Positions 1 through 2,379 of a stretch of DNA of 35,957 nt are shown piece by piece. The first letter of the stretch is position 1. Each line of letters starts with the position of its first letter. The DNA lies in contig JANQJC010000035.1 in NCBI GenBank assembly GCA_028281825.1, forward strand, positions 1-35,957. Reading direction: 5' to 3'. Both the position numbers and the translations under genes were made by a program. Below the pieces are notes generated by a model that ran no database searches, was not told where the DNA came from, and saw only the letters and a list, made by a program, of their open reading frames with translations. Source of the DNA: Flavobacteriales bacterium. Its GTDB lineage: Bacteria > Bacteroidota > Bacteroidia > JANQJC01.

Positions 1-141
1 AAAGTCAAGGCTGCCTGAAATTACCTTGAAATATAGCCTGTCACCCACCACGGATGTGTTGCAAGCCGTCCACTTCGTGGACTTCGGGCAATCCATCCAC
101 AGGCCAGCGCTGCCAGGCATATTTGCTACGGCAATTTCAGG
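1..141. repeat. Left copy of palindromic intergenic repeat flanking the TIR gene
   Basis: Bases 1-24 are identical to bases 1542-1565 on the other side of the TIR gene, a perfect 24-bp direct repeat beginning AAAGTCAAGG. Inside this copy, CCTGAAATTACC (14-25) is matched in inverted orientation by GGCAATTTCAGG (130-141) with one mismatch. A short hairpin, GTCCAC-TTC-GTGGAC, sits at 68-82. No convincing gene lies here. The element may extend left of the window. It resembles dispersed repeats I remember from Bacteroidota genomes, but that is memory, not a search result. Confidence 0.6.
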
Positions 142-159
142 AATGCCGATGAGAAAAAC

Positions 160-1461
160 TTATTCCCTTTTCAAGTCTCTGAGTAAACGTTCGAAAGCTT
201 TGGTGTAGCTATCGTGGTCTTTCCAGTTGGTGAAGTCGCCGATGTGATATTTCCTTCTTATAGTATTGGCCCAAGGTGTTGAAGGATGTAATATATTATT
301 ATTTAACCTTATTGGAAAAAGGACATTTATTTTACTATTCATTTCTCTTTCAAGTGCAGCTTCTACTTCATTTTCCACCCAATCACTTACTATTGAGTGC
401 TCCGAAAGCACCAATAACAACTTATCATGAACTCTTATAGCCCTGTCTATAACATGACGAATTTTATCTCCGATTCGTAAATCCTTGCTGTCGAGCCAGC
501 AACGTATTCCATTGTTTTGTAAATCTGCATGTAACCGATCTACGAACTCTTTGTCTTTCGATGAATAACTGATAAAGCATGAATAAAATTCAATTGGATT
601 GCCCTGTAAGGTAGGTATTAGGTTGATTAATTCATCTGGTAAGCCGCAGCCCCTTAGAAACGCAACGGGTAAATCTCCCGATTGGGCTAATGATCTGTGG
701 TCAATAGAACTGGGACCTCTATGGATACAGGATTTTAGGTTTTTAATTTTCCCCAAACTAATATCAATAAATATGGTTTCATCCAATATTGCACCATGAA
801 AATTAGCTGAATCAAGATTAGTATTAACAAACTTTGTCTGTAAAAAATAAGCTTCTTTACAAATAGTATTTGACAAATTTACGCCCTCTAAATAAGCCTG
901 AAAAAGGTTGGCATCGGTTAGATTTGCCTTATTAAGTTGTGCTTCTGTTAAGATTGAACTTGAAAGATTTGTGTTAACAAGCTGTGCTTCAGATAAATTG
1001 GACGCTATTAAATTTGCTTCTTGAAGTTGTGCATGAAATAAGTTAGCTCGCACTAAACTTGCTCCAAACAAGATTGCTGAGTTAAAATTTGCATAGGATA
1101 GATCAGCTTTAAAGAACTGAGTTTCAGATAGGTTTGAGTTATGAAAGTTAGCTTTTATAGCGATTATCTCATTTAAGTCACCTTCTGTAATACTACTATT
1201 TGAGAAATCACAATTATTTAGGTTTGCACCAGAGAAGTTTGCTCTAGAGAGGTTCGAGTTAGAAAAAGAGGCATAAATCAGGTTGGAATTAGAAAAGTTA
1301 GCCCCAAAAAAATTTGCATTAGAAAAATCTATAAAAGGTAAATTAGAACTTGGTTTTTCTATTCCTGTCAAGTCAGGTCTAATATCAACATTTTCCTTTC
1401 TCCACTTGTTCCAAATATCAACGCCTTGTTCTAGTATTGCTAAATGTTCTGGGTTCGCCAT
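160..1461 (-). CDS. Pentapeptide-repeat protein with C-terminal TIR domain
   Basis: This 433-aa protein begins MANPEHLAILEQG, a start common in pentapeptide/TIR proteins. Residues about 43-233 are pentapeptide repeats of the A(N/D)LxxA type, which form a right-handed quadrilateral beta-helix. A linker containing HRGPSSIDHR and FLRGCGLPDELI leads into a TIR domain at about 291-428 (FISYSSKDKEF, then CWLDSKDLRIGD). In the WVENE motif, Glu365 is four residues after Trp361, as is the catalytic Glu of SARM1-type TIR NADases, so NAD cleavage is possible. The longer reading frame to 1497 was not used: a weak -7 box (CAACTTTG, 1495-1502 on this strand) overlaps that start, while the ATG at 1461 lies downstream of it. 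The gene is AT-rich and flanked by repeats, suggesting transfer. A defence or signalling role is inference. Confidence 0.9.
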   Translation of the reverse strand: MANPEHLAILEQGVDIWNKWRKENVDIRPDLTGIEKPSSNLPFIDFSNANFFGANFSNSNLIYASFSNSNLSRANFSGANLNNCDFSNSSITEGDLNEIIAIKANFHNSNLSETQFFKADLSYANFNSAILFGASLVRANLFHAQLQEANLIASNLSEAQLVNTNLSSSILTEAQLNKANLTDANLFQAYLEGVNLSNTICKEAYFLQTKFVNTNLDSANFHGAILDETIFIDISLGKIKNLKSCIHRGPSSIDHRSLAQSGDLPVAFLRGCGLPDELINLIPTLQGNPIEFYSCFISYSSKDKEFVDRLHADLQNNGIRCWLDSKDLRIGDKIRHVIDRAIRVHDKLLLVLSEHSIVSDWVENEVEAALEREMNSKINVLFPIRLNNNILHPSTPWANTIRRKYHIGDFTNWKDHDSYTKAFERLLRDLKRE

Positions 1462-1521
1462 AGTGAGATTGTTTAAGACAAGTATAATGAAAAACAAAGT
1501 TGCGTCTACTTATACTTTTTG

Positions 1522-1620
1522 CTTGACCAAAAAGTATTGGAAAAGTCAAGGCTGCCTGAAATTACTTGCTAGTGGCAAAAATCAATCATCCATTAGACGC
1601 AAAATCTTGCGTCTCTACGG
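1522..1620. repeat. Right copy of the palindromic repeat with attached hairpin
   Basis: This holds the second copy of the 24-bp repeat (1542-1565). Just before it, CTTGAC (1522-1527) and GTCAAG (1545-1550) form an inverted pair, with CCAA/TTGG (1527-1530, 1537-1540) nested inside. Further on, AGACGCAA (1595-1602) and TTGCGTCT (1607-1614) form a perfect 8-bp hairpin with a 4-base loop. The hairpin has no run of T and looks like a dispersed repeat rather than a terminator. Confidence 0.6.
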
Positions 1621-1819
1621 AATTAATAATATTTAAAATATTGATTTTCAATTAGTTATTGAAATAAAACAATAATATTGTACTCCCTTTTTAAACAGCG
1701 TGTACTTGCAAATTAACAGTGTTAAAATGGCGAAAAAAGGCCAAAAAACGCGTTTGTCGATACCCCCGAGGGACTCACGGAAAATCTTGGTCGACGAATA
1801 ACACCGTACTTTTTTAGCC
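1621..1819. other. Gene-free stretch with an inverted-repeat element
   Basis: Together with the repeat before it, this makes a gene-free stretch of over 350 bases. The first half is AT-rich. At 1753-1760 TTTGTCGA is mirrored by TCGACGAA at 1791-1798 (7 of 8 positions), with a GC-rich core between them. A 24-codon frame starting MAKKGQKTRL spans 1727-1801 on the plus strand over the same element. I saw no ribosome site for it and do not call it a gene. The element lies just past the stop of the DUF6952-like gene on the minus strand, so it could be a structured transcript end, an operator or a repeat. Confidence 0.4.
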
Positions 1820-2062
1820 CTAACTGATGGAATTTCTAACTCTTACAGAATAGTTACGAATAGCAGTTCTTAAGTCTACGCCATTTTGCTGCATATCTTG
1901 CAGTATAGCAATAGCAGCGGTTGTGTGGGTCAATTGCTCTCCTTCGTCTTCACCCTCAATTTCAATTTCGGGTTTTTGTTCTTCTAGTATGGCTTCTTCA
2001 GCTGCTTGCAATTGCTCTATATTGTAGGTTTCTGCAAGCTGCTTTATCACTGCTATTTTCAT
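1820..2062 (-). CDS. Small acidic protein, DUF6952-like
   Basis: This is an 80-aa protein with no signal peptide or membrane segment. It begins MKIAVIKQLAETYNIEQL, has a very acidic middle (residues about 27-42) and ends in a basic helix-like stretch. Size, N-terminus and position directly after a thioredoxin gene match what I remember of the DUF6952 family of Bacteroidota, whose function is unknown. Its ATG overlaps the thioredoxin stop by four bases (ATGA), which suggests translational coupling and a linked function, perhaps as a redox partner or client (inference). The family assignment is from pattern memory. Confidence 0.75.
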   Translation of the reverse strand: MKIAVIKQLAETYNIEQLQAAEEAILEEQKPEIEIEGEDEGEQLTHTTAAIAILQDMQQNGVDLRTAIRNYSVRVRNSIS

Positions 2063-2379
2063 CCTTTCAAGTTTTGAAGCAGGTTAACTACAAATTCTTC
2101 TTTGGCTGCACTGCCGTATTCTTTTAGTTCACCATTTTCAAAAGTCGCGAAATAGGGTAGGTTGTCTACTCTGGCTTTTTTCCTGGCTTCTGGGTTGTGC
2201 TCAGCGTTTACATCCAGAAATGCTACTCCATCAAACCTTTCGTCTTCTGAAAGCCTTCTGAATTTAGGTGCAAAAAGTTTGCATGAGCCGCACCAATCTG
2301 CATAATACTTTACTATTATCTTTGGGTTTTCGGCTAGTTTCGCCTCAAAGTCTTGGTCTGTCACTATTTCTACTGCCAT
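2059..2379 (-). CDS. Thioredoxin family protein
   Basis: This is a 106-aa cytoplasmic thioredoxin-fold protein of about the usual thioredoxin length. The redox motif is WCGSC (Cys30 and Cys33) rather than the classical WCGPC. The Ser in the Pro position usually shifts the redox potential of such proteins, so its substrates may differ from TrxA. The cis-proline needed opposite the active site is present in DNLPYF (Pro75). No signal peptide is seen, so it acts in the cytoplasm. It is the first gene of a two-gene unit with the DUF6952-like protein, with a four-base overlap. A -7 box TATTTTTG with a TTG 18 bases upstream precedes it. Confidence 0.93.
   Translation of the reverse strand: MAVEIVTDQDFEAKLAENPKIIVKYYADWCGSCKLFAPKFRRLSEDERFDGVAFLDVNAEHNPEARKKARVDNLPYFATFENGELKEYGSAAKEEFVVNLLQNLKG

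Follow-up and report, generated by a model that had tools for sequence, protein, structure and literature searches.

The window analysed here is a 35,957-nucleotide stretch of DNA from a Flavobacteriales bacterium, corresponding to contig C14 of a draft assembly of 144 contigs and 4.0 Mb. At its left end a single gene, coding for a protein that combines a pentapeptide beta-helix with a TIR domain, lies between two exact copies of a 24-bp direct repeat. The locus raises two questions: what such a protein might do, and whether the repeats on either side of its gene serve to move it. The sequence-only reading had proposed a stand-alone defence or stress effector with its own mobilising repeats. 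We found the second part of this proposal to be wrong. The idea of an effector, by contrast, is plausible, and it extends to a widespread family that has apparently not been described before. The features discussed are collected in Table 1.

Table 1. Positions of features at the left end of the window, and of repeat tails elsewhere in the genome
Feature	Position	Strand	Basis or remark
Type A dispersed repeat, 150-nt imperfect palindrome	1..150	+	BLAST, covariance model
Pentapeptide-linker-TIR coding sequence, 433 aa	163..1461	-	Stop codon 160-162; Pfam, family alignment, AlphaFold2
TIR domain, residues 294-432	166..582	-	PF13676 3.3e-27; AbTIR 4.5e-12 (PDB sequence search)
Putative catalytic Glu365 codon (WVENE)	367..369	-	Invariant in 12 aligned members
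Conserved helical linker, ~residues 240-293 (HRGPSSIDH...FLRGCGLPDELI)	583..744	-	Alignment; modelled helices 255-285
Pentapeptide beta-helix, ~residues 29-239	745..1377	-	PF00805, AlphaFold2, Foldseek to pentapeptide solenoids
N-terminal leader ANPEHLAILEQGVDIWNKWRKENVDIRP, two predicted helices	1378..1461	-	Conserved in relatives; AlphaFold2 helices 3-11, 14-23
Type B composite repeat	1510..1815	+	Head 1510-1565 as in type A, then a different body
Type B tails adjoining stop codons	window 1633-1815; L046:4957-5137; L059:4430-4612; L043:473-655		
DUF6952 (1820-2062) and thioredoxin (2059-2379)	1820..2379	-	Ordinary neighbours; occur in Bacteroidia relatives without an adjoining TIR gene

Architecture of the encoded protein

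The open reading frame codes for 433 residues when read from its ATG, or for 445 from a TTG. Both of the domains seen in the sequence-only reading were confirmed by Pfam, which returned Pentapeptide (PF00805) at 2.3e-36 and TIR_2 (PF13676) with a score of 95.8 bits against a cut-off of 28, and the WxxxE glutamate was correctly placed at Glu365, within the motif SDWVENE at residues 359-365. A search of PDB sequences matched AbTIR, which is an NAD+ hydrolase, together with other TIRs. The AlphaFold2 model (mean pLDDT 84.8) has the beta-helix running to about residue 240 and a TIR domain in which residues 325-344 are poorly modelled. The linker between the two (~55 residues) gave no Pfam match.

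Among characterised proteins, SpbK of Bacillus subtilis is a single-gene TIR anti-phage NADase that is activated through its N-terminal domain, and it remains inactive until the phage portal protein YonE clusters this domain, upon which NAD+ is cleaved (PMC12847820). SpbK and the window protein share a stand-alone layout, in which an N-terminal sensing part is followed by a linker and a C-terminal TIR domain with a catalytic-site glutamate. They differ in that the N-terminal domain of SpbK binds YonE, whereas the window protein has a pentapeptide beta-helix there, accompanied by a leader and a linker that are both conserved. SpbK is the nearest tested precedent for the way in which the window protein probably works.

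Other known systems were matched over parts of the protein. Thoeris ThsB is alike in its TIR domain, for which ThsB_TIR (PF08937) scored 28 against a Pfam cut-off of 21.2 (2.9e-6), a weaker match than that to TIR_2, but the PADLOC models of ThsB match the TIR stretch only, and no gene for ThsA was identified in the window's list of open reading frames, in which the left side of the gene is the contig end. The best PADLOC match, to the candidate system PDC-S66 (2.2e-20), is confined to TIR residues 291-384, and NCBIfam models of known TIR families scored far below their cut-offs (retron-TIR, 47.9 against 600; Thoeris ThcB4, 28.8 against 220). The NCBIfam model of HalA, the effector of the Hailong anti-phage system, gave weak matches (16-20 bits against a cut-off of 250) to the pentapeptide stretch of the window protein and of L068, and to the channel stretch of L079. 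Although HalA is an ion-channel effector that has no TIR domain, these matches raise the possibility that it and the window protein have in common a helix-plus-effector layout. The pentapeptide proteins Qnr, MfpA and HetL have the same beta-helix fold, as judged by PDB search and Foldseek, but possess no TIR domain, and their NCBIfam scores are far below cut-off.

Spread, conservation and surroundings of the family

The window protein shares its order of parts with proteins from many lineages: a leader (WNKWRKENP), a pentapeptide helix that varies in length among the aligned members, a linker (HxGPS…FLRGCGxP) and a TIR domain. A scan of genome contigs recovered full-length or near-full-length relatives in Desulfarculaceae, SAR324, Chlorobiaceae, Chitinivibrionales, Acidobacteria, Omnitrophota, Chloroflexi, Ignavibacteria, Anaerolineales and Saprospiraceae. 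Every intact linker match that we examined was preceded by pentapeptides and followed by a TIR domain; the reading frame at L114 stops before the TIR. In the literature available to us, our search for a pentapeptide-linker-TIR family found no paper. These proteins form a coherent family, one that is apparently not yet described.

Trp361 and Glu365 are invariant in the 12 members that were aligned, which come from about ten lineages, and the WxxxE motif is retained in 24 of 28 scorable members. The glutamate is lost in the remaining four (L109, L110, L111 and L115), so that a conventional TIR NADase activity is excluded for some members. These four are long Chlorobiaceae proteins in which the residue is replaced by T, T, M and L, respectively, and are perhaps regulatory or decoy versions.

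The linker profile matched in 35 of the 395 genomes of the phylum, 28 of them in Chlorobiaceae and three in the window's class (one decayed), a patchy spread that is consistent with horizontal transfer. No full-length match to the gene was found in any of the 59 other genomes of the class. Individual genomes carry up to three copies, with copies in tandem at L064 and L067. Judged from the sequences, this mixture of multiple, tandem, lost and broken copies is the pattern expected of conflict genes.

Two damaged copies are worth recording. The genome under study holds a C-terminal remnant of a second family member on C1 (L042:10381-10526; 39 residues at C1:10410-10526, 67% identity), and a relative on plasmid pSR-5 of Skermanella rosea (L086) is apparently split by two IS256-family transposase genes, which stand between its pentapeptide and TIR parts.

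The window copy stands among housekeeping genes. In the neighbourhoods examined, family members had no consistent partner or defence-island context, which agrees with the initial view of a single-gene system; a defence-island setting was considered and rejected, the exceptions being one methyltransferase gene and one SLOG gene. Carriage by phages or viruses was likewise set aside: none of the phage matches extends over more than 57% of the protein, their names are of the pentapeptide type, and the sole IMG/VR match spans only residues 3-249.

The leader and pentapeptide helix also occur ahead of other C-terminal parts, namely ion channels (L075, L079 and L080) and a further domain common to L073, L076 and L082. 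Because the leader was among our search patterns its frequency is biased, though its occurrence before different effectors is real. The AlphaFold model of the further domain is weak (pLDDT 58), and for this reason its Foldseek resemblance to the CMP N-glycosidase MilB and to plant TIRs is a lead only, by which the domain may be NDT/N-glycosidase-like or TIR-like. As far as can be told from these arrangements, the C-terminal parts behind leader and helix look to be swappable, which suggests exchangeable effectors. We tentatively entertain, as possible rather than probable, a broader scheme in which leader and helix would be the sensing module of a widespread single-gene defence class, the effector being exchanged (TIR NADase, NDT/N-glycosidase-like enzyme or channel) and the linker serving as a TIR-specific coupler. 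If one leader and helix do serve channels and other enzymes as well as the TIR, the sensing role of pentapeptide helices would become directly testable.

Possible mode of action

We think it probable that the gene in the window reached this genome by horizontal transfer and represents this family as a stand-alone gene, and that its product is most likely an NADase of the immunity type. In a mechanism drawn from SpbK, the beta-helix and leader would bind a trigger or keep the protein inactive, and the linker would pass on the resulting change or clustering to the TIR domain. TIR domains would then gather and cleave NAD+ via Glu365, and the loss of NAD+ would halt the growth of the infected or stressed cell. 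The sequences themselves show the architecture, the conserved glutamate and linker, the patchy spread and the dispersed repeats; cleavage of NAD+, a phage trigger and activation by clustering are carried over by analogy. The window protein is a plausible anti-phage effector. In favour of an NADase effector are the matches to PF13676 and AbTIR, the retained tryptophan and glutamate, the pentapeptides and TIR on either side of every intact linker examined, the copy pattern of conflict genes, the ion channels behind the same leader and helix, the SLOG neighbour at L064 and the precedent of SpbK. Against it stand the setting of the window copy, with its housekeeping neighbours and no consistent defence island; the restriction of PADLOC and NCBIfam matches to the TIR or the repeats, those of NCBIfam being far below cut-off; the four long Chlorobiaceae members that lack the glutamate; and the poorly modelled TIR segment.

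The absence of the glutamate from some members would also fit a TIR domain that acts as a signal generator or scaffold for a separate partner encoded elsewhere, such as a SLOG-type receptor. There is a precedent in Thoeris, whose TIRs produce signals for ThsA. A SLOG fold is described as the sensor of TIR products in that system (PMC11204291), and two of the family's copies, at L064, lie near a cpYpsA/SLOG gene. This SLOG neighbour, however, occurs once only among the neighbourhoods listed, and the window itself is without a partner gene. We regard such an arrangement as unlikely, although it is the alternative that fares best.

A housekeeping or developmental role is less probable still. Qnr and MfpA are examples of pentapeptide proteins that bind gyrase, and a helix that binds gyrase or another protein, attached to a degenerate or structural TIR domain, would accommodate both the members without the glutamate and the weak matches to the Qnr and MfpA profiles. 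These matches are far below cut-off, however, and a patchy spread, decayed copies and the invariance of the tryptophan and glutamate in the main branch all speak against a role of this kind.

If the family does consist of defence effectors, then the pentapeptide beta-helix would be an added way to switch on TIR NADases, and the FLRG linker would provide a defined coupling piece that is open to testing. The obvious group in which to study the family would be Chlorobiaceae, where a genome can hold as many as three copies.

Repeats flanking the gene

The 24-bp repeat is exact at both of its sites (1-24 and 1542-1565), and, as first noted, one AT-rich gene lies between them (35.2% GC in the coding sequence, against 39.8% for the window); about 3e-8 pairs of this length would be expected by chance in 1.7 kb. 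Alignment revealed that the two copies are the common head, TACTTTTTGCTTGACCAAAAAGTAnnCAAAAAGTCAAGGCTGCC, of two different composite dispersed repeats, type A and type B, whose bodies share nothing beyond it. Base 1 of the window is the first base of C14 and falls inside the type A repeat; since the contig starts exactly at the repeat, a break in the assembly truncates the first copy, and the 5' part of this type A copy is missing. The second copy continues leftwards, with a head that is held in common with other copies over ~1510-1565, and type B occupies most of the interval between the start of the TIR gene and the stop codon of the DUF6952 gene.

Copies of the repeats in the genome were counted by search. 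The 24-mer is present at nine places when up to two mismatches are allowed, positions 1-160 of the window gave 29 BLAST matches on many contigs, and a covariance model of type A gave 22 matches, 18 of them strong across all or nearly all 150 positions, with one variant in addition. The variant (L131:1501-1664) retains the ends of the repeat and has its interior swapped for unrelated sequence. Elsewhere, type A copies lie between ordinary genes and have no pentapeptide-TIR gene beside them; from a reading of their translations, the genes beside repeat copies include those for a BipA-type GTPase, YebC, a sufS-like product and purine synthesis. Type B was found whole at two other places (C117:352-655, 94%; C75, L059:4316-4612, 92%), and its tail also in L046, L050 and L131. 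At C117:163-655 (L043), type A and type B follow one another in the order and orientation of the window, separated by ~70 bp that contain no gene.

The claim that the gene has its own mobilising repeats fails on this evidence, in that the flanks belong to two different dispersed families that stand mostly without such cargo, at unrelated places, a distribution that the sequence-only reading had itself named as counting against it. Among the genomes compared, the gene is not fixed at this locus: in eight distant Bacteroidia that have the thioredoxin gene, most of them with a DUF6952-like neighbour but none from the same family, no TIR gene adjoins it. Despite these relatives, the exact repeat on either side of the gene and a 150-nt hairpin located 9 bp past the stop codon, where an attC site would be, it is very improbable that the gene is a cassette moved by the 24-bp repeats or by integron-like hairpins, given that the flanks have only a head in common and not the same element at both ends, that other copies hold no similar cargo (the joint A and B copy on C117 included), that either end of a gene may face the repeat, and that the gene's relatives elsewhere stand in unrelated surroundings. 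An integron-like array was considered on account of the covarying hairpin. Integron attC sites are, like type A, hairpin repeats with covarying stems, but type A copies are unlike integron cassettes in that they are not arranged in a cassette array: their neighbours are ordinary genes, which may turn either end towards the repeat. The cassette reading was rejected for this reason.

On the reading that we prefer, neither flanking repeat has a part in the function of the gene, both being intergenic elements dispersed in the genome. Type A resembles a structured element of DNA or RNA. Its consensus hairpin, from 17 aligned copies, covaries strongly: it has 37 pairs, 19 of them with compensatory changes, and 93.9% of its cells pair, against 80.2% when shuffled and 30-41% when slid. 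Since the hairpin was derived from the same alignment, the last comparison is tilted in its favour over the slid versions. In the outer two helices, 5 cells have one-sided (G-U type) changes against 77 with double changes, a pattern that agrees with a DNA hairpin, or with hairpin-copying, no less well than with an RNA. A known RNA family was discounted, as type A had no Rfam match above the gathering score. One other family (G107) gave weak matches, of 49 and 43 bits, which suggest that the repeat has distant kin. In its dispersed extragenic copies type A resembles the intergenic palindromes of the REP/MITE type, a plausible class for it. Type B tails, for their part, lie ~0-11 bp from stop codons at several places (the window, L043, L046 and L059), as if tied to the 3' ends of genes.
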